Assembly (NCBI GenBank): GCA_022750415.1
Contig: JAKIVT010000005.1
Coordinates: 1-46,692 of the forward strand
Origin: Thermoplasmata archaeon
Lineage (GTDB): Archaea; Thermoplasmatota; Thermoplasmata; Lutacidiplasmatales; UBA184
Direction: 5' to 3'
Length of the DNA stretch: 46,692 bases
Shown: positions 12,069 to 41,153 of the stretch, in pieces
How positions within the stretch are numbered: position 1 is the first letter of the stretch
Layout of the letters: every line of letters starts with the position of its first letter
Translations under genes and position numbers: made by a program
Notes under the pieces: model-generated
Database searches by the model: none
The model's input: the letters and a program-made list of their open reading frames with translations, nothing else
What the model was told of the DNA's origin: nothing

Positions 12069-12425
12069 CTACGTTCCGCGACTTCTCGCTCTCGGGCGGT
12101 CCTCGCGAAGCCAACCGGCCAACGGAAGCAGGCTCCGGTAGAGTTCCGTCCCCACCGGCGTGAGGTCGTACGCCACGGGAGCCCCCCGAAACAGTTCCGT
12201 CGTGCTGCGGACGATGAGCCGTTCCCGCTCGAGGGCGCGCAACGTCGACGTCAGTGTCGCCGGGCTCACACGGGGCAGCGACCGCTGAATCGGGCCGAAC
12301 CGGAGCTGTCCGTTGTGGCCGAGGAGGGTGACCACACACATTGCCCACTTCTTCCCCACCACGTCGATGAGCCCGACCGGCGGACAGGGGCAATTGTAGA
12401 CCCCCTCGCAACACTCGGCGTCCAC
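12069..12425 (-). CDS. Cys-rich HxlR/winged-helix transcriptional regulator
   Basis: PPVGLIDVVGKKWAMCVVTLLGHNGQLRFGPIQRSLPRVSPATLTSTLRALERERLIVRS. GTG start at 12425 proposed (VDAECCEGVYNCPCPP); the listed ORF starts at 12461. Confidence 0.82.
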   Translation of the reverse strand: MDAECCEGVYNCPCPPVGLIDVVGKKWAMCVVTLLGHNGQLRFGPIQRSLPRVSPATLTSTLRALERERLIVRSTTELFRGAPVAYDLTPVGTELYRSLLPLAGWLREDRPRARSRGT

Positions 12426-12446
12426 TTCGCTCGTACGTAGCGGCGG

Positions 12447-12481
12447 GTTATAACACTTCATTCCTTGAAGTGTCGGAGGTG
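12447..12481. promoter_or_regulatory. Bidirectional promoter/operator: palindromic TATA (GTTATAAC), perfect 8-5-8 inverted repeat (ACACTTCA-TTCCT-TGAAGTGT, 12453-12473) and Shine-Dalgarno GGAGGTG
   Basis: Read directly: gttataacacttcattccttgaagtgtcggaggtg lies between the divergent HxlR gene and the poly-Cys ORF. Confidence 0.75.
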
Positions 12482-12485
12482 CGCC

Positions 12486-12587
12486 ATGAGCGGAACTGAG
12501 AACTGCGGCCCATGCTGCTGCTGCTGCTGCTGCAAGTGCGATTGCAGCGAGTCGACCAGCAAGCCGGGCTGCTGCCGGAGCGCGTGA
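12486..12587 (+). CDS. 33-aa poly-cysteine micropeptide (metallothionein-like candidate)
   Basis: ATG at 12486 with GGAGGTG ending 5 nt upstream; translation MSGTENCGPCCCCCCCKCDCSESTSKPGCCRSA*, 12 Cys. Its TGA overlaps the arsC GTG (GTGA). Too short for the supplied ORF track. Confidence 0.72.
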   Translation: MSGTENCGPCCCCCCCKCDCSESTSKPGCCRSA

Positions 12588-13027
12588 CCGCCGAACGTCG
12601 GGTGGTGTTCGTCTGCGTGGAGAACGCGGCGCGCTCGCTGATGGCCGAGGCGATCTTCAACGCGGAGCCCCCCGCCGGTTGGGCAGCCGGATCCGCGGGA
12701 ACGCGACCGGCGGCCCAGCCGAACCCCCGCACCGAGCGGTTCCTCCGCGAGATCGGCCTCGAGCTCCCGCCCCACCCCCCGCAAGAACTCACGGCCTCGG
12801 GGCTCGATGCGGCCAACCTCATCGTCACGATGGGCTGTCTCGATGACGCGAGCTGCCCGGCGAATCTCCGCCGTCGGGAACTGCGAGATTGGAAGCTCCC
12901 GGACCCGCGCATACTCGACGACGACGGATTCCGTGCGGTGCGGGACGAGATCCGTCGCCGGATCCGGGAACTGGCCCGCGAGTTGAGGGCCGGTCCGGAT
13001 AGCCCCCGCGCGGGGCCCACGACGTGA
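12584..13027 (+). CDS. arsC: Arsenate reductase ArsC, LMW-phosphatase family
   Basis: RRVVFVCVENAARSLMAEAIF (CX5R loop), VTMGCLDDASCP redox Cys pair, DWKLPDP; GTG start coupled to the upstream micropeptide. Confidence 0.9.
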   Translation: MTAERRVVFVCVENAARSLMAEAIFNAEPPAGWAAGSAGTRPAAQPNPRTERFLREIGLELPPHPPQELTASGLDAANLIVTMGCLDDASCPANLRRRELRDWKLPDPRILDDDGFRAVRDEIRRRIRELARELRAGPDSPRAGPTT

Positions 13028-13689
13028 CGTTCGAGCTCCGCACTCGACTCCTCGCCGAGGTGGCCGGCACCGCCCTCTTGGTCGGGATCGGCACGGGCGC
13101 GATTGTCGCGACGACCGGCGTCGGGAGCGGACGCTTCGCGATCCTGGCGTTCGCCTGGTTCGTCGCGGTCACGATTCCCGTCTTCGCGTTCGCCTCCGTC
13201 TCCGGCTCGGAGATCAACCCGGTCGTGACCCTCGCCCTCGTCCTGGACGGACGCCGACCCCGGCGAGAGGCGTTCCTCTACGGGGCGGCGCAGCTCGCCG
13301 GCGCCTTTCTCGGGAGTGCGCTCGTCGGGCTCGCTTCCGGAAGCTTCGCCCATCTGGGGGCGACCACCCCGGCCGACGGCAATGTGCTGCGGACGTTTCT
13401 CCTCGAGTTCGCCTTCACCTTTGCCCTCATCGTCACGGTCTTGGCGCTCGTGCGGGTCGGTCCTGGCCGGGCCCGTTGGCGGCTGACGTGGCCCGGCGCG
13501 GTGGTCGCGGTCTCGACGTTCCTGATCGGTCCGTGGACCGGAAGCTCGCTCAACCCGGCTCGTACCCTCGGCCCGGCAGTCCTCTCGGCGGCGTACTCCG
13601 ACCTGTGGGTCTACCTGGTCGCCACGCCCCTCGCCGCAGTCGTCGCGGCCATGGCGGTCCGGACCGGCGAGCGGCTCCGGGGCCGTTAG
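13024..13689 (+). CDS. MIP-family channel (aquaporin/AqpS-like)
   Basis: 221 aa, multiple TM segments; SGSEINPVVTLAL and TGSSLNPARTLGPAV, the two NPA-type loops (first is NPV). GTG start overlaps the arsC stop by 4 nt. Confidence 0.92.
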   Translation: MTFELRTRLLAEVAGTALLVGIGTGAIVATTGVGSGRFAILAFAWFVAVTIPVFAFASVSGSEINPVVTLALVLDGRRPRREAFLYGAAQLAGAFLGSALVGLASGSFAHLGATTPADGNVLRTFLLEFAFTFALIVTVLALVRVGPGRARWRLTWPGAVVAVSTFLIGPWTGSSLNPARTLGPAVLSAAYSDLWVYLVATPLAAVVAAMAVRTGERLRGR

Positions 13690-31063: not shown

Positions 31064-34000
31064 CTAAGAGCCGCCCGGCGCGCGGTCGTCGCCCTCCTCG
31101 GTTTCCGACTCGGCCGTGGAATCCCCGGAATTCAGGGGGCCCCGGCGCCACCGAGATCCAACGACGGCCCCGAGGGTCAGGCCGACGACGAGAAGCGCGA
31201 TCAGGAGACCGAGCGCCGGGAGCTCCCCGGCATTCGCGGCGCCGTGCATCGACGGTGCCGGGGCGGGAACGAAGGTGGCAGTCTCGTTCGTGGGACCGGA
31301 CACCACGACAGAGCCGCCCGCATTCGGGCCCGTATACGGGGACGCTCCGCCGTTCCCCGACCCGTTCCAGCCGACGAATTGGTAACCTGCCGCCGGTATC
31401 GCGCTCAACGTCACCCGATCGCCGGTGGCCACCCAGGTCCTCCCGACTCCGGTCACGGTTCCGCCGACGCTGGCGGTCACAACAAGGGCACACTGCTCGG
31501 TGAACGTGATGTCCACCGTCCCATCGGCCTCGACGGTGACCGGGATCGGGTTCGAACCGTTCGCCACGTAGCGGATCCCCGGTTCGATGTAGACGGCGGG
31601 CACGACCAGGACGCTCGTACCGTTGAGCCCCGAGAGGTTCAGAGTCGTTCGCGGGCCGGTCGCGCTCGTGGTTCCCCCGGCGACGCTCACACTCCAGGCC
31701 AGCCCCCTGGGCAGCCCACTCTCCGTCACCCCGAGGGAGAAGACGGCGGCGGGGGGGAACTCCCGGTAGGCGAAGGTGGCCGTCTCCCAGGTCGGGCCGA
31801 GTACCGTGACGGTGACCGCCACCGTCGTCGCCGAGACGGTTCCCGGGCCGCTCGCGTTCCAGCCGGTAAAGGCGTAGTGGTAGGCGGGACTCGCCGTCAG
31901 CTCGACCACCGACCCGCTGCCCTCCCAGGTCGACCCGAGTGCCGTCGACGGCGTGACGGACCCTCCCGCGCCGCTCGCGACCGTGAGGACGTACTCGGTC
32001 TCGTAGCTCACGGTAACCGTGCCGTCGGCCGAAATGTTGAGCATGCCCCCGACGGCAGGTCCGAAGGAGGAGATCCAGGACTTCGGCACCCAGCGGGTCC
32101 CGTTCGAGGCGTTCGCGTAGACGGTCGCCGGGACGAACCGGTACGAGCCGTTCGGAACTCCGCCGACGATGAGGGACGCCCCTGATCCGGTGTGGGACGT
32201 CGTCCCTAGGGTAAACGTGAGCGCGACGCCGGAGGGTAGGCCGACCCCGGTGACGGTGACGTTCCACACCGGCAACGGGTCCGGCCGGAACGTCGCGAGT
32301 TCGGTCACGGGGGCGGTCGGAGAGATCGTGGTCGCGGCGTCATGCTCCTGGAGGGCCGTCGACGACCCGGCGCCCGCCCCCGTCCACTCGAGGAACCGGA
32401 ACTTGGGCGAGGCGGTGGCGTTGATCGTGACGTTCGCGCCGGATTCGACCCACCGGCTGGAGGGACTCACGATGCCCCCGGTGCTGGCTGCGACCGTCAA
32501 CCAGAACATCGGTAGGTAGCCGATCACCACGCTCGCGGAGCCGTTGAAGTAGGCGACGGGCGAGTTGGGCGCCGTAAAGTTCGTGGTGTTCACCCAGGTC
32601 GTGTTTTCCATGAATTCGAGGACCGAGACCGAGGCGGCGTAGTACGCCACCCCCTCCTCGGTGTAGACGAACGAGCCGTTCAACGTGTACCGCGCCCCAC
32701 CGGTGACCGTCAGCGGGAGGCTCCCGTTGGTGACCGCGAACGAGGTCGACCCGACGTCGGCGGTCCAAGCGGTCCCATTGGGCAATCCAGACGCGCTGAA
32801 GTTCGCGACGAACGTCGTCATCGCCGGGTTCGCGAGCGTGTAGGTCACGTTCACCAAGGTCTGCGTCGGCTCCTTCACGGGCGACCCCGGCGTGGACGTC
32901 GGGATCCACTCGGAACCCGTCACGGCCGGTACAGTCCACACGGTGTACTGCGCCGCGTTCTGGCCGGTCGTGACGTTGAGCCACGGGATCGTGGCGGTCG
33001 CGCTGTGGGTGCCTTGCGCGGTTCCATTCGCGGTGACCGTGACGCCCCACGCCGTCCCCGCGGGGAGGCCGGTCTCGAAGAAGGTGAGCGGATAGGCGTA
33101 CGGCCCGACACAGGAGAGGACCCCCAACATTCCGACGCAGTTGCCGTTGTCGATGAAGTTGGCTGTTTCTTGGACCGGGGAGGAGCCGACGGTAAAGGTG
33201 ACGTTCGTGGCGTTCGTGCTGACGGAACCGATTCCGGTGCCGGTCCAGGAGACCCAGGTCAGGTTATCGTACGTGCAGTTGATGACGCACGAGATCGACT
33301 GCGGCGCCACCACGAGCCGGAACGGGGTGTTGACGCCGACCCAGAACGTCCCGGGGAGCGGGGCCATCTGGTACGTGGATTTGCTGAGCCCGGGCGTGAG
33401 GTTCAGCGGGGTAATCGGCGGATTCAGGGTGACGGTGACCTCGACGAATTCCTGGAACGTGAAGTCGAGGGTCATGCTCGAGGGGAACGTCGCCGGCGGG
33501 AATGGATTCGTCGCCGACGGCACCGGCTGCCACGCCACGCCGTACGATAGGTTCAGCCACGCCACGGCCCAGGCGATTGGCTCGGTGGTCGGAACTCCGG
33601 AGATGACCAAGTCGGTGCCGGCCGGGGCGTTGCGCTCGTTGCCGAGGATGTCGGCCGACCAGTTGTACGACGCTGTCAAGTTGGTCTCGTGGAGCGTGAG
33701 CGAAACGCCGGCTCCCGCGAACATCGAGGAAATGACGACCGTCGTGTTCGGTTCGACGAACGCCGGATTTGCGAACCGGCAGACCGGTCCCCCGGAGGCG
33801 AGCGGGCACGCCGAGTTCGTCCAGGCGAAGAACATCGCCCCCGACGGAGCGGTCGTCGCCGTCTCGTACTCCCCCATATAGGCGCTATCGAGCGCGAGGG
33901 TCGGGAAGGCCGAGAGGACGACCGGCCCGTTCCACGACGCGCCGTTGTCGGTCGAGTTGAAGTACACCTGTTCGTAGGCCCCGCAGTAGGGGGTCCCCGA

Positions 34001-35644
34001 GACCGCCCCGCAACTCGAATCGTTGAACAGTTCCGAGGTGACCGCGACGGTCCCGTTGGGGTCGACCGCGATCGCGGGGTAGTACTCCGGGCTCAGGGTC
34101 CCATTGTACGGGTCGGTGAGGTTGCCGACCTCCTCCGGCTGGGACCAGGTCGCTCCGCCGTTGGAGGAGTTCTGGAACACCGTGGAATCGACCGCCAGCC
34201 CCGCCTGACACGTCGGGGGTCCGACGGCGCTCGGGGTGCAGAAGCTGCCGATCGCTTCGGAGCTGTACACAAGGTCCAGTTGGCCCGCGACCCCATCGTA
34301 GGCCAGCTGGGGGTGGATTCCGACGAACGGGCTCGCCCCGTACCCTCCGGATCCGGACGTCATGTCGAACGGCTCGTTGGTCGCCGCGTAGTGCACGGTC
34401 CAGGTCCCGTTCCCTCCGGTGGCGTTCGCGACGACGACGTCCTGCGTGTCCGTCCCTCCGGTGCAGCCCGACGCCTCGCAGAAGGTGAGGGGGCCGGAGA
34501 GCCCCGTCGCGTAGGCCACGTAGACCTGCCCGTTTGGGGCGGCGAGAACGTACGGGTTCACGGAGAAGTTCGAGGGGAGGCCGCCGACCGGGACTCCCCC
34601 GTCCCCGACCGTCGGGAAGTTGACGGGAGCCCCCCAGGTGGCGCCGCCGTCCGTGGAGGAGATCAGGTGGACGCCGGCGGAGTACGGGTTCGTACTGAGG
34701 CAGCCGTTCGCGTCCGAGATGTTCTCATAGACGAGGTAGACCGACGTGCCAGACGCCGAGATCCATGGGTGGTAGAGCGGCGAGCCGACCGCGAGGCCGC
34801 ACAGGTCCTCTTCGGCGCTGGCGTTGAACGTCTGGTTGAGCACGTGCGGGGCCGTCCAGGTGGAGCCGCCGTTGTAGCTCTCTTGGACGACCAGCGCCGA
34901 GTTCTCCATGTCGTACGGGAAGATGCGGGGAACGACCGGGTCGGAGCAAAGGAAGAAGATCACCGTGCATCGCGAGACGTTGAACTCGGCGTAGGTGAGA
35001 ACAAATGTACCGTTCGATAGGCTCGTGAGCGATGGCTGCCACGCGTCGGTGAGGTTCGCCGCCTCGCTGCAGTTCTCATTGCCGAGGTATTGGATGGAGG
35101 ACCATGTCGCGCCTCCGTTCGTGGACGACTGGAAGGCCACGTCGACCATCGTGTTGTTCGTGAGATTGAACACCTTCGCACAGTGGGAGTAGTTCGTGAA
35201 CGCCGTGAAGGCTACCCCCATCGTTCCGCCTGACGTCACGTTGACCGACGGGTCGAAGGTCGCGTTCGGACACGTCCCGGTGGAAAACAGCGAGAGGGTT
35301 GGGAAGCACGACCGGTTCGAGGGGCGGACCGCGGAGAGATTCGCGTTGTTGAAGAACGCGCCGCGTCCGCTTGCCACCGGTCCGCTGGCCGGCGCACTCG
35401 CGAGCTTGACACCGCTGGAGCTGGAAGCGGGGGCGAGCGACGCGGAGGAAACGGAGATCCTCGCATTCGTTCCTCCCGAAGGACTGCGGGGTCCGGAGAC
35501 CGGGGATTCCGCCGCCGGATGGAGGGACAGGCCGTAGATCACCACCGCCGAACTCAGGAGCAGGGCGACGACCGCGAGCGCGGCCAGTCCGGTCCGAAGT
35601 CCGCGCGACCTTCGCGCGGAATCCAGCCGCTTCTCGGGACTCAT
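31064..35644 (-). CDS. Giant surface protein: N-terminal TM, Asp-box/BNR region, GLPxG and InlB-like beta repeats, C-terminal TM
   Basis: Start MSPEKRLDSARRSRGLRTGLAALAVVALLL; Asp-box motifs STNGGATW, SYNGGSTW, STDGGATW, SSNGGATW, STDNGASW; many N-x-S/T sequons; C-terminal LGLLIALLVVGLTLGAVVGSRWRRG. Confidence 0.88.
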   Translation of the reverse strand: MSPEKRLDSARRSRGLRTGLAALAVVALLLSSAVVIYGLSLHPAAESPVSGPRSPSGGTNARISVSSASLAPASSSSGVKLASAPASGPVASGRGAFFNNANLSAVRPSNRSCFPTLSLFSTGTCPNATFDPSVNVTSGGTMGVAFTAFTNYSHCAKVFNLTNNTMVDVAFQSSTNGGATWSSIQYLGNENCSEAANLTDAWQPSLTSLSNGTFVLTYAEFNVSRCTVIFFLCSDPVVPRIFPYDMENSALVVQESYNGGSTWTAPHVLNQTFNASAEEDLCGLAVGSPLYHPWISASGTSVYLVYENISDANGCLSTNPYSAGVHLISSTDGGATWGAPVNFPTVGDGGVPVGGLPSNFSVNPYVLAAPNGQVYVAYATGLSGPLTFCEASGCTGGTDTQDVVVANATGGNGTWTVHYAATNEPFDMTSGSGGYGASPFVGIHPQLAYDGVAGQLDLVYSSEAIGSFCTPSAVGPPTCQAGLAVDSTVFQNSSNGGATWSQPEEVGNLTDPYNGTLSPEYYPAIAVDPNGTVAVTSELFNDSSCGAVSGTPYCGAYEQVYFNSTDNGASWNGPVVLSAFPTLALDSAYMGEYETATTAPSGAMFFAWTNSACPLASGGPVCRFANPAFVEPNTTVVISSMFAGAGVSLTLHETNLTASYNWSADILGNERNAPAGTDLVISGVPTTEPIAWAVAWLNLSYGVAWQPVPSATNPFPPATFPSSMTLDFTFQEFVEVTVTLNPPITPLNLTPGLSKSTYQMAPLPGTFWVGVNTPFRLVVAPQSISCVINCTYDNLTWVSWTGTGIGSVSTNATNVTFTVGSSPVQETANFIDNGNCVGMLGVLSCVGPYAYPLTFFETGLPAGTAWGVTVTANGTAQGTHSATATIPWLNVTTGQNAAQYTVWTVPAVTGSEWIPTSTPGSPVKEPTQTLVNVTYTLANPAMTTFVANFSASGLPNGTAWTADVGSTSFAVTNGSLPLTVTGGARYTLNGSFVYTEEGVAYYAASVSVLEFMENTTWVNTTNFTAPNSPVAYFNGSASVVIGYLPMFWLTVAASTGGIVSPSSRWVESGANVTINATASPKFRFLEWTGAGAGSSTALQEHDAATTISPTAPVTELATFRPDPLPVWNVTVTGVGLPSGVALTFTLGTTSHTGSGASLIVGGVPNGSYRFVPATVYANASNGTRWVPKSWISSFGPAVGGMLNISADGTVTVSYETEYVLTVASGAGGSVTPSTALGSTWEGSGSVVELTASPAYHYAFTGWNASGPGTVSATTVAVTVTVLGPTWETATFAYREFPPAAVFSLGVTESGLPRGLAWSVSVAGGTTSATGPRTTLNLSGLNGTSVLVVPAVYIEPGIRYVANGSNPIPVTVEADGTVDITFTEQCALVVTASVGGTVTGVGRTWVATGDRVTLSAIPAAGYQFVGWNGSGNGGASPYTGPNAGGSVVVSGPTNETATFVPAPAPSMHGAANAGELPALGLLIALLVVGLTLGAVVGSRWRRGPLNSGDSTAESETEEGDDRAPGGS

Positions 35645-38600
35645 CGGTCCTCCTCTCCCGATGTGGACGAACCTCGTGGACCCGATGGAGCCCTGCGGAG
35701 TCGGAACACGAGGTAGCCGACCACGAGCCCGGCGAGGAGGCCGACCCCACCCAGGACGGCCCAGGTTGAGACATTGGACCAGAAACCCGTGGCCGTCGTC
35801 GTGCCGGAGACCGTCGGATGGAAGGTGGCAAATTCGGAGAGGGGCGCCCCGACCGTCGCGTTGACGGCGGACTGGTTCCCCGAGTAGCTCCCGGATCCGT
35901 TCCCAGTCCATGTCGCGAACACTTCGCCGAAGTTCGGTACGGCAACCAGGTGGAGGGGCGCGCCGCTCGGATACCACCCGCTCAGAGGGGACTCGGAACC
36001 GCCTGCGGAGCCTCCGATGGCCACCCAGTACGACGGGGGGGCGAACACGACCGACTTGCTCGTGTTCTGGGTGACCGGGAGTGAAAATGTTGCCAAGGTG
36101 GGGCTCCACCTCGTCAGGTCGTCTACGGAGGTGGCGACCCCGACGGCGACCTGGTAGGTGTTCGGAGCCAGGCCGGAGACGTTGATGTCCCGTCCGACGG
36201 CCGAGTACCCCGTGCCATTGACGGTGAGCCCCCAGTTGGTTCCCGCCACGTAACTGTCGGCCCACGTGAACTCGACCGAGTAGGTCGGGTGGTGGACCGG
36301 TAGCACGGGGACAAAGGTGGCGAGCTCGGTCACCGGTCCGCCGATCGATAGCATCGAGGTGGGAGCCGTCCCGGTATAGCTGCCGGTTCCGGTTCCGGTC
36401 CATCCGACGAACACATCCCCGAACGACGCGGACTCGCGGAGCTGGACGTTGTCCGACGCGTTTGCCCAGAGCGAGTGAGCGGAGATCGCCGCCCGGTCGG
36501 AGACGTACGCCGAACCCCCGAGGGTGGTGGAGAGGGAGACCAGGTACTGCGGAGCGAACGTGAGTGGTTCGATGGTTCCTCCGTTCGTGCAGAACTGAAT
36601 GGGCGGATTGACCGCGTCGTACCGGGTGGAGCCGATGGTCGTGTTGTACGCGACCCCGACGCTGACGAAGTACTGTCCCGCCGTTCCGGCGGCACACGAC
36701 AACAGGTTGGAGACCGTAAGGGAGGTCGAATTCGAGGAGTAACCGACGCCGTTCAGGTCGACCGTCCACCAGGAGCCGGAGGGGATCCCGGCCTCATCGA
36801 ACGTGACGTTGAACCGGCTCGCCGGCAGGGGGAAGAAGCTCGCCGTCTCGGTGATCGGGCCTCCGACGGTCAGAGACGCCGTGAGATTCGGTCCGGTGTA
36901 GGACCCGGCTCCGGTCCCCGTCCACCCGCCAAAGGAGTCCGCGCTCCCCGGTGTCGCGTTGAACGACGCGGCCGACCCGGCGGCGAACCAATGGCTCCCG
37001 AACCCCGAAGCGAATCCGCCGAGGCCCGCGATAACGTCGACCCGGTAGGCTGGGGTGTACGAGAGGTTCACCGTTTGGCCGACCACGACGGAGAGCGTGG
37101 GCCCGACCGCCACCGGGGTGAATCCGACCGACCCGTTCGCGGCGACGGCGGCGCCCGGGGACCACGGGAACGTTCCCGGTCGGGTCGTGACGTTGAGCCA
37201 CGGCATCGAGGTGCTGTACGCCGTCCCGTTGAAATCCACCGACCACACGGTGCCGAACCCGAGCCCCGGCGCGTAGAACGTCACCGTTCCCGAAGGGGCC
37301 GCAACATCGACGAATGCGAAGTCGAACCGGACCGTTGGTTCCGCCGGCACGACGACCGTATCCGACCCGCTCGCCACCGCTCCGAAGTACTCCCACCCCG
37401 GCGTCGAGGAGTTGGCCGTGATGCCCGACACCGTGTACCCGCCGGTGGGGATCCCCGGAACGTACGTCCAGTTCGAGGAGGGCGAACTGTAGTTGGTGCC
37501 CGCGAAGGCGAAGGAGTACCGCGAAGTGGGCGGGAGCCCGGTCGCCTGGAACCCTTCGGTGTAGACCCCGTACGATCCCGCCCAGCCCGTCTCGTTCACC
37601 GGTCCGCCCATCGTGACGTTGATTTCGGTTCCCCCGCCCGTGTAACTTCCCACGCCGCTCCCGTTCCAGTACGTGATCGGCGGGTCGGAGCCCCCCTGGA
37701 ACGTCTCGGTGACCCCGGCGGGGAAGTACCACGGGAAGGACGGGCCGGAGTATGTGGCCCCGTTGAAGCATTCGACGAAGTAGAATTGGCCGCCGATGAA
37801 CGCTCGAATCTGCTCGACGTTGGTGGTCAGCGTCGGTTGGACCCAGAACTGAAGGCCGTACTCGATCGTGAAGTTGGCCTCCGCGACCGTCGGTCCGACG
37901 AATTCGTACGGCGACCGAATCGAGAGCGAGTCCGTGAAGATCGCCCGGTAGATGCTCACCGACAGGGCGAGAAGCCCGACCGGAATCGCGACGTGGAGGG
38001 GAACGTTGGAAATCCGGATCGAGGACTGGTTGGTCGTCAGGTTGAGGCCGTCGAAGGCGATCCCCCAGACCGACCCGGCAGTGAGGTTGTGCTCGTCGAA
38101 AGTCACCACGGCCGTCGGCCCGGTGTAGACGGAGGCGATCGAGACGTTCGTGTAGTACTCGGAGGAGTACAGGAACGGGGGCCCCGTCGAAGAGAACGAG
38201 GAGGTCGACTCACTCGGTAACGTCGTCGCGGTGACCGGGGTTCCCCCCGCGGAGATCGCGATGGAAGACTCCCATCCCTGGTAGTCGTTCGCGATGTACG
38301 ACGGCGTGAGGTACGTGGCAACCGCCGTCAGGTTCGCGACCCAGGCGGCGCCGTTGGCGGAGCTCGCCACCCAGGAGCTGACCGTACCGACAAAGTCGGG
38401 GCATCCCGAGCTCGAAAAACAGTACGTCTCGTTCAGCCACACGTAGGCGATGTACGCCGTGCCTCCGGCGACGGCGACCGCGGGCGAGTAGTAGTTGTCG
38501 GCGTTTCCGGCCGCGAAATCTGCGGCCACCGTCGCATTGGTCCAAGTCGCCCCGCCGTTCGTCGAGTGGGCGGCGAAAACGCCCGTGTCTTGCCAGTCGG

Positions 38601-39921
38601 CGTAGGCAGCGGCGGCGGATTTGTAGAACGTCCCGGAGTACGCGACGAACACGCCGTGCCCGGAGGCGTCGTACGCGATCGACGTCTGCGGAGTCGCCAT
38701 CCACGGGTAGGAATACCCGGAGTAGTACGCGTCGGAATAATCCGGGTACGCATACGACTCCCCGGTCCAGTTCCCGGCGACGGTCGGACCCGCCCAAGTG
38801 GTCCCGTTTCCGGTCGAGGTCGCCACCACGATCTGCTCCCCGTACGTCGAGTACGGAGACAGGGCGACCCGGCAGGACAGCAGGCAACTTCGGTTCGTTG
38901 CGTAGGCAACCGCGAGCGCGCCGGTCCGGTTGACGGCGACGCTGGGGGCGCTCGACCAGTTCGCCATCGTGGCGTTCCATCCGGGAAGTACCACCGGCGC
39001 GCCCCACGTCGCCCCCGAGTCGTTCGAGACCACCAGTTCGACCGCGAGCGCCGGGAACGGTCCGAGCCCATTTCCTCCGGGGTAGCTCGCCGTGCCGTTG
39101 TCCGTGCTCACATACACGATGTAGATCGTGTTGCCGAACACCGCCATCTGCGGACGCACCGCGGCCGTGACGTTGGGAACGACCGAGACGTTGCTCCAGG
39201 TTGTCCCACCATTCCCGGACTGGACGAAGGCCAGGGCGTCCCCGACCGGGGCACTCCAGTCCGGCGGGAAGTACGGCTGCGACCCGAAGGTCCCGCTCGA
39301 GTTGATCGTCTGGTTGGAGAGGATGTAGGCGCCGTCCACGACTCCCGCCGTTCCGGCCGCGAACGTCGGCTCCGACGCGGAGGGCCAACGGCAGGAAGGG
39401 CTGCCGAGCAAGGTGGGCGCGCCCCAGACCGAGGCGTTCGATAGGGACAAGGCCCACGCAACGGTCGTGGCGGTCCACGACGTCAGATTCGTGGAGTTTC
39501 CACTCGCATTGCAGAGCGGCCCCACCGTCGTGTAGAGGGAGTAGCCCACCCCGAAGTGACCGGAGGCCAACCGCACGATTGAGGGGTTCTGGGTCTGCGG
39601 GTAGCAGGTGGATTGGATCACGAAGCCGTAGTTGTTCGTCAAGCAAGGGGTGTTGGTCGAATTCGCCGGGGCGAGGTCGGTCGAGGAGTACGTCGTCCCC
39701 AGTGTCACGTTCAGGCCGCCGCCGGGAAGCGCCGCGGGTACGGGAGCCACGGGGGGCGAAACGGGCACCGGCAGATACCGCGGGAGGCCCGTCGGCCCCG
39801 GTCCGGCAATCGTGGTCGCTCCCGAGAGCGGAAGCGCGGTGACCAACAGCCCCGCGACCACCGCCAGAATCAGAACACCTCGTGTCGGGGAGCGGCCTCT
39901 CTCCTCGGCCGCGATGTCCAT
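35641..39921 (-). CDS. Giant surface protein, paralogous architecture, C-terminal TM
   Basis: Start MDIAAEERGRSPTRGVLILAVVAGLLVTALPL; QSGNGGTTWS, SNDSGATWG, STNGGATWT; repeats W(T/N)GxGxGSYTG...GGP(V/I)xExAxF; TM VLGGVGLLAGLVVGYLVFRLRR. Stop overlaps next ATG by 4 nt. Confidence 0.88.
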   Translation of the reverse strand: MDIAAEERGRSPTRGVLILAVVAGLLVTALPLSGATTIAGPGPTGLPRYLPVPVSPPVAPVPAALPGGGLNVTLGTTYSSTDLAPANSTNTPCLTNNYGFVIQSTCYPQTQNPSIVRLASGHFGVGYSLYTTVGPLCNASGNSTNLTSWTATTVAWALSLSNASVWGAPTLLGSPSCRWPSASEPTFAAGTAGVVDGAYILSNQTINSSGTFGSQPYFPPDWSAPVGDALAFVQSGNGGTTWSNVSVVPNVTAAVRPQMAVFGNTIYIVYVSTDNGTASYPGGNGLGPFPALAVELVVSNDSGATWGAPVVLPGWNATMANWSSAPSVAVNRTGALAVAYATNRSCLLSCRVALSPYSTYGEQIVVATSTGNGTTWAGPTVAGNWTGESYAYPDYSDAYYSGYSYPWMATPQTSIAYDASGHGVFVAYSGTFYKSAAAAYADWQDTGVFAAHSTNGGATWTNATVAADFAAGNADNYYSPAVAVAGGTAYIAYVWLNETYCFSSSGCPDFVGTVSSWVASSANGAAWVANLTAVATYLTPSYIANDYQGWESSIAISAGGTPVTATTLPSESTSSFSSTGPPFLYSSEYYTNVSIASVYTGPTAVVTFDEHNLTAGSVWGIAFDGLNLTTNQSSIRISNVPLHVAIPVGLLALSVSIYRAIFTDSLSIRSPYEFVGPTVAEANFTIEYGLQFWVQPTLTTNVEQIRAFIGGQFYFVECFNGATYSGPSFPWYFPAGVTETFQGGSDPPITYWNGSGVGSYTGGGTEINVTMGGPVNETGWAGSYGVYTEGFQATGLPPTSRYSFAFAGTNYSSPSSNWTYVPGIPTGGYTVSGITANSSTPGWEYFGAVASGSDTVVVPAEPTVRFDFAFVDVAAPSGTVTFYAPGLGFGTVWSVDFNGTAYSTSMPWLNVTTRPGTFPWSPGAAVAANGSVGFTPVAVGPTLSVVVGQTVNLSYTPAYRVDVIAGLGGFASGFGSHWFAAGSAASFNATPGSADSFGGWTGTGAGSYTGPNLTASLTVGGPITETASFFPLPASRFNVTFDEAGIPSGSWWTVDLNGVGYSSNSTSLTVSNLLSCAAGTAGQYFVSVGVAYNTTIGSTRYDAVNPPIQFCTNGGTIEPLTFAPQYLVSLSTTLGGSAYVSDRAAISAHSLWANASDNVQLRESASFGDVFVGWTGTGTGSYTGTAPTSMLSIGGPVTELATFVPVLPVHHPTYSVEFTWADSYVAGTNWGLTVNGTGYSAVGRDINVSGLAPNTYQVAVGVATSVDDLTRWSPTLATFSLPVTQNTSKSVVFAPPSYWVAIGGSAGGSESPLSGWYPSGAPLHLVAVPNFGEVFATWTGNGSGSYSGNQSAVNATVGAPLSEFATFHPTVSGTTTATGFWSNVSTWAVLGGVGLLAGLVVGYLVFRLRRAPSGPRGSSTSGEEDR

Positions 39922-40079
39922 GCCTTCCGGGAAGCTTCGGCCCGTTAAGCGTCGCTGGCACCCTTCCATACCCGAGAGGGTGGGGACGGAACGGCCCCCC
40001 GGCCCAGCTCGGCCCGCGAGTCGGGCGCCTTTCGCTCCGCCCGGCTCGGTGGGAGGAGGCGCCCGGGAACGGGCGCCGG

Positions 40080-41153
40080 TTAGGTCAGCCGGCCCTCGAA
40101 CACACGGTTGAACGGGGTCTCGGTGGCCCGTCGGAAGCTGTGAAATCCCACGCCGACCGCGAGCTCTCGCAAGACCGAATCCGGAGTTTGCGCGCCGAGG
40201 GACATTCCGCCTTCCTGGGACATGGCCGCGGGAACGCAGAGGCTGACGGACGCATTGTAAAAGATCCGTCCGACCGGATTCACGTTCTCCGTGAGCTTCT
40301 CGCTCGCCATCGGTTCGACGACCATCCAGCTCCCGTCGGGCTTGAGCGACGACCGGACGTGGGTGGCCGCCCCCTTCGGGTCGCACATGTCGTGGAGGCA
40401 ATCGAAGAACGCCACCAGGTCGTAGCCGGTCCCCGGGTACGACTGCGCCGCGGCGACCTGGAACTCGACGGAGTGTTCGACCCCGGCCTTCTTCGCCTCC
40501 GCGCGGGCCCCCTCGATCGAAGCCTCGTGGTAGTCGAAGCCGACGAAGTGGCTCTTCGGGAACGCCTTGGCCATCACGATGGTCGACGCCCCACGGCCGC
40601 ATCCGACGTCGGCCACCTTCGCCCCTCGCTCGAGCTTCGCCACCATTCCAGTGAGCGCGGGAATCCAGCTCGGGACCAAGTTGGCGACGTACCCGGGCCG
40701 GAAGAACTTCTCCGTGCCGACAAACAGGTCGGGGCTGTGCTCGTGCCAGCCGACACCCTTTCCGGTCCGGAACGCCTCGAGGACCCGGGGTTCGTCCTTG
40801 TAGGCGGCCGCCGCGATGTAGAACGCGCCGGGGAGGTACGCCGGGCTCGCTTCGTCCGCGAGGGTGAACTCCTGCTCGGGGGTGAGGTAGAAGGTCTTCC
40901 CGTCCGGTTGCACGCTGACGTACCCCGAGGCGGCTTGGCCGGCAAGCCACTCGCGGACGCAACGTTCGTCGGTCCCCGTCCCCTTCGCGAGCTCATGCGA
41001 GGTTTTACCGGACCCCCCGGCGAGCCCCTTGTACAATCCGAGCTTCGCGCCGATGAGGATGGTCGGACCGTGAAAGTTGGCACCGAGGTCCAGAACGAAC
41101 CGCCCGACGAACTCGTTCAGTTTGGTGGGGTCGACCGCTCGTTGCTCGCTCAT
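40080..41153 (-). CDS. SAM-dependent methyltransferase
   Basis: VADVGCGRGASTIVMAKAFPKSHFVGFDYHEASIEGARAEA, YDLVAFFDCLHDMCDP; N-terminal winged-helix-like segment; start MSEQRAVDPTK. Confidence 0.92.
   Translation of the reverse strand: MSEQRAVDPTKLNEFVGRFVLDLGANFHGPTILIGAKLGLYKGLAGGSGKTSHELAKGTGTDERCVREWLAGQAASGYVSVQPDGKTFYLTPEQEFTLADEASPAYLPGAFYIAAAAYKDEPRVLEAFRTGKGVGWHEHSPDLFVGTEKFFRPGYVANLVPSWIPALTGMVAKLERGAKVADVGCGRGASTIVMAKAFPKSHFVGFDYHEASIEGARAEAKKAGVEHSVEFQVAAAQSYPGTGYDLVAFFDCLHDMCDPKGAATHVRSSLKPDGSWMVVEPMASEKLTENVNPVGRIFYNASVSLCVPAAMSQEGGMSLGAQTPDSVLRELAVGVGFHSFRRATETPFNRVFEGRLT

Follow-up and report, generated by a model that had tools for sequence, protein, structure and literature searches.

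What is an open reading frame of 33 codons, 12 of them for cysteine, doing directly before an arsenate reductase gene in a Thermoplasmata archaeon? The stretch analysed, hereafter the window, is 46,692 nt of contig JAKIVT010000005.1, and the preliminary description of it, made from the letters alone, had proposed two mechanisms for the short frame: a metal(loid)-binding peptide that exchanges its ligand with ArsC and the neighbouring channel, or a Cys-responsive leader whose translation gates arsC.

The micro-ORF and its operon

The micro-ORF (12486..12587, + strand), gene 1 of the ars operon, is called on its translation, 28 relatives, a codon signature and a chance test. It reads MSGTENCGPCCCCCCCKCDCSESTSKPGCCRSA followed by a stop, in exact agreement with the 33-residue, 12-Cys peptide first proposed, and seven Cys codons stand in a row at 12513..12533 (+), where a tandem repeat finder returned (TGC)7 as an exact repeat. 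A Shine-Dalgarno-like GGAGGTG (12475..12481, +) lies 4 nt before the ATG at 12486, and GAGG-type sites occupy the same place in most relatives; at the other end the TGA stop (12585-12587) overlaps the GTG start of arsC (12584-12586). The preliminary description had reported these features together with a TATA box and an operator-like repeat, and all of them were recovered. TATA-like TTATAA is found at 12448..12453, with TTAT(A/G)A or similar in the same place in relatives, and possibly drives both of the divergent units. It is followed at 12454..12472 by a perfect inverted repeat, CACTTCA-TTCCT-TGAAGTG (CACTTCA-N5-TGAAGTG), which is conserved across the family and has no second copy in the 2.0-Mb genome, with up to 2 mismatches allowed. 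Promoter-pattern searches added a further conserved element, GTACGTAG (12433..12440), which precedes the TATA box.

Beyond the operator lies a divergent HxlR-family regulator (12069..12425, - strand; Pfam PF01638, E 8e-16; relatives compared) with CPCPP and an N-terminal Cys pair. Its start is most likely GTG 12425; the alternative ATG 12461 is disfavoured because it falls inside the operator and is missing in relatives. In the other direction ArsC (12584..13027, +) has the LMW-phosphatase fold (PF01451, E 1.6e-20), and its nearest solved structures are arsenate reductases (PDB 1y1l, E 3e-16), while its own scores stay under the NCBIfam equivalog cut-offs. It has the marks of an LMW-PTP-type arsenate reductase: the LMWPc fold, a CX5R motif that includes Cys11, and two further cysteines, Cys85 and Cys91, that may be the resolving residues. 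The arsC stop overlaps the start of a MIP-family channel gene with NPV/NPA motifs (13024..13689, +; Pfam PF00230, E 3e-33), likely the exit channel for As(III). ArsC paired with an aquaglyceroporin-type channel is a documented alternative to ArsC with ArsB/Acr3, as in AqpS of Sinorhizobium meliloti and AqpS-ArsC of Salinispora (PMC6205960); the window operon shares with these arsC-aqpS type operons the reductase and the channel in place of ArsB/Acr3, and differs in having HxlR rather than ArsR, plus the Cys micropeptide. PAC2, HxlR, MIP and epimerase genes make up the surroundings of the operon, with no arsA. Elsewhere in the window (31064-40962, -) are two very large ORFs of ~1,900 and ~1,770 aa, rich in Ser/Thr/Gly/Asn, which probably encode exported surface proteins.

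A family of cysteine-rich peptides before arsC

ArsC was used as query in 78 genomes of the genus of the window, and ~80 loci were examined. The distinct Cys-rich micro-ORFs collected number 29, with 5-15 Cys in 22-42 codons, from 22 of the 78 genus genomes and from 6 genomes of other genera of the family: 21 adjoin arsC (the window included), 2 are uncoupled (G058, G012) and 6 come from the other genera. The family carrying them is of the Ca. Lutacidiplasmatales type, a placement that follows from the identity of one peptide-bearing genome, AcS11-62, with a published Ca. Lutacidiplasmatales MAG (PMC9287336). The 21 genus loci in which the micro-ORF stands directly before arsC have a divergent HxlR gene in 18 and a downstream MIP gene in 18, and a GTG, TTG or ATG start overlaps the peptide stop (NTGA or TGATG) in 17; the exceptions are L043, L082, L091 and L114, whose stops come near the point where arsC homology starts. 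Nearly all 29 ORFs begin 10-16 nt past the conserved operator, beside the divergent regulator. Comparison with relatives had been put forward as a check on the peptide, and many of them do carry a Cys-rich ORF at this locus; the peptide is a lineage-restricted family rather than a lone oddity.

Several searches bear on position and distribution. When 611 kb of arsC loci were cut into 11,050 stop-to-stop segments, 24 of these reached 7 or more Cys within 25 aa; 19 are the arsC-adjacent peptide and 1 is the G058 peptide. The arsenate-reductase loci of ~20 outgroup genomes of the class have no Cys-rich ORF at arsC. The promoter pattern GTACGTAG-N8-20-CTTCA-N5-TGAAGT gave 28 matches in 25 genomes of the genus, against 0 for its reversed control; over 400 genomes of the class every match fell inside the family, the ~300 genomes outside it having none. 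The first ORF behind the pattern is a Cys peptide in most cases and an arsenite-methyltransferase-type protein in three, and the remaining matches have a Cys-poor or Cys-less first ORF, or none. A search of 85,462 species for CPPGCC[DE]xCC returned 8 archaeal records, each from this group, and 2 from bacteria. Neither of the latter was accepted as a homologue: the Micromonospora match (L125) looks like a chance frame, and that in a Planctomycetota MAG (L123:5388-5825, +) is a secreted-looking Cys-rich protein with CCTCCPDDACGPDCPPGCCDNCCDECSDGCCG, containing CPPGCCDxCC, probably by convergence.

Not every locus follows the scheme. HxlR adjoins arsC in 28 loci, and 10 of these lack the peptide; two of the ten keep a coupled micro-ORF with 2 Cys (L146) or none (L152), in which Cys is evidently dispensable. 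Either certain species can do without the peptide, or its coupling to arsC is an additional function that can be separated from the rest. An arsM-like gene stands directly upstream of arsC in 29 loci and the peptide in 21, never both, an exclusion that is partly definitional as one place cannot hold two genes; arsM is also found under the common operator type in relatives. In three loci (L065, L079, L104) the micropeptide directly before arsC is replaced by an AbrB-like protein whose N-terminus is rich in Cys (CCGEDCCGGGISCCG...), and the L079 copy scores above the cut-off for the NCBIfam model 'HgcAB-associated protein HgcC'. The N-terminal Cys pair of HxlR is present in 17 of 27 loci with the peptide and in 0 of 16 without it (L181, the same locus as L126, being scored as peptide-bearing), an association that is suggestive only, since it comprises just 2-3 phylogenetically independent pairs and is not significant.

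Coding constraint and the chance explanation

The Cys content of the micro-ORF is far outside chance expectation. Without it, the 46.7 kb of the window reach at most 6 Cys per 33 aa and a longest Cys run of 4, values never exceeded in 100 first-order Markov simulations; in the 2.0-Mb genome (TGY)4 has 9 matches, 4 of them within the micro-ORF run, compared with 31 for the reversed control. Codon positions 1, 2 and 3 of the CPPGCC block, compared pairwise across 16 peptides, have diversities of 0.18, 0.22 and 0.49; third positions vary most, which points to constraint at the protein level. Codon use resembles that of arsC, with GC3 of 0.84 at non-Cys codons (arsC 0.85) and TGC:TGT of 189:54 (arsC 52:17). 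Conserved residues form the C-terminal motif CDPxxCPPGCCDxCC.

Two styles of peptide can be told apart. The CDPxxCPPGCCDxCC style is scattered on the arsC tree, and the poly-Cys style occupies two supported arsC clades (98/97 and 98/96) and appears again in another genus (L184, L185). The window falls in the first poly-Cys clade with the syntenic orthologues G010, G066 and G038, the last of which encodes VSECKGCCCCCCQCDCRDVPSQPSCCRSA. Identity to these orthologues is ~79-86% at the DNA level, fairly even over the long conserved stretches. Cassette exchange, considered because PAC2 is 99% identical and ArsC 71%, was ruled out by this evenness, which indicates that the loci are ordinary orthologues and that the ars module evolves faster.

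An open TGC expansion, or an ArsC that starts further upstream and is read in another frame (MLLLLLLQV...), would also place such letters before arsC; (TGC)7 is after all a perfect repeat, and 10 of 21 loci have an arsC frame that stays open across the peptide. However, that frame has stops across the peptide in the other 11, which rules out an N-terminal extension of ArsC, and the Cys runs of relatives mix TGC and TGT, some family members having no repeat at all. With the codon signature and the Markov test, these relatives refute a microsatellite or chance ORF, and such an origin is barely credible.

Cis or trans

If the frame is translated, its product could act where it is made or at a distance. 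A cis-acting leader would respond to scarce Cys-tRNA, or to As(III) held by its own nascent chain, and its stalling or completion would set arsC expression. The ORF is indeed short, usually the first past the operator, with its stop on or near the arsC start, and first position with coupling to the next gene fits a leader equally well. Contiguous Cys codons, present in the window and ~10 relatives and absent from the CPPG type, recall the Cys attenuators of mycobacteria, and CruR provides a precedent for a metal-sensing uORF (PMC9426467). However, RNA folding of the leaders of 21 loci found no more structure than in shuffled sequences (mean z +0.40), on which ground an RNA attenuator was rejected. 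Cys codon choice in the peptides matches that of arsC. Non-Cys residues are conserved (DP..PPG..D) while the number and place of Cys change widely, and no known arrest motif was seen by eye.

The uncoupled copies bear on the same question. In G058 (L086) the peptide, VPQPSESAPGCRPSNCCCCCCCCCGTSCD, lies under its own operator, and ~110 nt past its stop a second complete GTACGTAG/TATA/operator set precedes arsM, arsC and MIP, so that in this genome arsM and the peptide are served by separate operators, and the peptide gene is parted from arsM by the second promoter. G012 (L153, contig 88) keeps HxlR and the peptide without arsC; a ppx/gppA-like gene lies ~110 nt downstream and a CHAD-like ORF beyond HxlR, both named by eye. 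These copies and the lack of an RNA structure signal favour a peptide acting in trans, although there are only two of them and the arsC-less G012 copy could be decaying. We regard a leader as doubtful.

Could the ORF merely bring ribosomes to the arsC start by termination-reinitiation, its peptide being unimportant? The overlaps in 17 of 21 loci would suit such a device, as would the coupled ORFs with no Cys and with two; 5-15 Cys, the C-terminal motif, the third-position excess and the uncoupled copies would all be left unexplained, and we consider it distinctly improbable. A thiol reductant or disulfide relay that resets the ArsC disulfide, rather than binding As(III), draws on the relation of this ArsC to thioredoxin-coupled arsenate reductases and on CGPC in the window peptide and CPGC in L082. 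It is very improbable: CGPC is not conserved across the family, 22-42 aa are too short for a thioredoxin fold, and G012 keeps the peptide without arsC.

Of the two mechanisms first proposed, we prefer the metal(loid)-binding peptide, because the C-terminal motif is conserved, Cys are spread along the peptide and two genomes carry its gene as a separate unit. The case for a Cys-responsive leader that gates arsC is weakened by the absence of an RNA structure signal and of Cys-codon bias, by an uncoupled copy, and by a position that is not before Cys-metabolism genes.

Discussion

The comparative data allow the construction of a model. We favour a trans-acting binding microprotein over a cis-acting leader, and think it reasonably probable that the ORF encodes a lineage-specific, thiolate-rich microprotein that binds As(III) or soft metals and stands first among the products of an arsenic operon under HxlR control. 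In this model As(III) would bind to the cysteines of the regulator, HxlR acting as a putative arsenic sensor, and derepress the operon. The ribosome would make the peptide first, then ArsC by termination-reinitiation, then the MIP channel. As ArsC converts arsenate to As(III), the peptide would capture and buffer the As(III) made beside it, and the MIP channel would release it after one or more presumed hand-over steps. The peptide would act much as a metallothionein of minimal size does, or an arsenite carrier resembling ArsD, although another soft metal may be its true ligand. Against the model stand the 10 of 28 HxlR-arsC loci that lack the peptide and the wide variability of its sequence and Cys number (5-15).

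Comparison with known systems places the peptide beside several and within none. The window peptide matches nothing in Pfam or NCBIfam, bacterial metallothionein PF02069 included, and the family profile has no match in the PDB, consistent with the earlier statement that no named family fits; one relative gave a Keratin_B2_2 match below cut-off (E 0.0017), read as compositional. With metallothioneins (the bacterial SmtA type PF02069 and others) the peptides share small size, a Cys content of one-fifth to two-fifths, CC/CxC/CxxC spacing and an apparent metal(loid)-stress operon setting, and all 29, with 5-15 Cys in 22-42 aa, have the Cys content of a metallothionein-like class. They differ in lacking a Pfam or NCBIfam sequence match, in their length of only 22-42 aa and in belonging to an arsenic operon, and their metal binding is a prediction. 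ArsD is a folded protein of ~120 aa and the partner of ArsA. It is a Cys-based As(III) carrier of the ars operon (PMC6205960), the role proposed here for the peptide, whereas the peptides have no Pfam or NCBIfam match to it and no ArsA adjoins the operon. The mycobacterial polycysteine sORFs (Canestrari et al., 2020, doi 10.1111/mmi.14498, as cited in PMC9094748 and PMC9031893) are bacterial, leaderless and subject to Cys-responsive attenuation; they too are short upstream ORFs with contiguous Cys codons that head an operon. The peptides differ in their association with arsenic genes, their conserved non-Cys residues, the existence of uncoupled copies and the lack of an RNA structure signal over 21 loci, and they have an SD-like site, which may set their start apart from a leaderless one. 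CruR, a copper-responsive uORF of DUF2946 with 145 residues, CXXC and RAPP and predicted to be exported (PMC9426467), likewise contains Cys and opens a metal operon, but the peptides, at 22-42 aa, have no Pfam match to it and RAPP occurs in 0 of 29. On the preferred reading the peptide would thus be metallothionein- or ArsD-like, and on the rival reading polycysteine attenuator- or CruR-like; by sequence it belongs to none of them.

The open-access titles and abstracts returned on polycysteine, HxlR or small Cys-rich proteins in an ars context contain no earlier description of such a peptide. Gene callers easily miss peptides of such small size and Cys density, and in GC-rich genomes the peptide may end up inside an ArsC call that is too long and begins with poly-Leu. 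To our knowledge, no metallothionein-like peptide has been known in any archaeal arsenic operon. We give about an even chance to the broader proposal, drawn from these genome comparisons, of an undescribed family of poly-Cys arsenite-binding microproteins in the ars operons of one archaeal family, in which runs of 6-9 Cys would have arisen more than once and whose translation would be coupled to that of the enzyme producing their toxic ligand. Such a family, if real, could supply sensor design or remediation with a small scaffold that binds As(III), would show clearly whether an enzyme and the peptide that mops up its toxic product are coupled in translation, and would give a family of uncultured acid-soil archaea a gene-encoded counterpart of phytochelatins.
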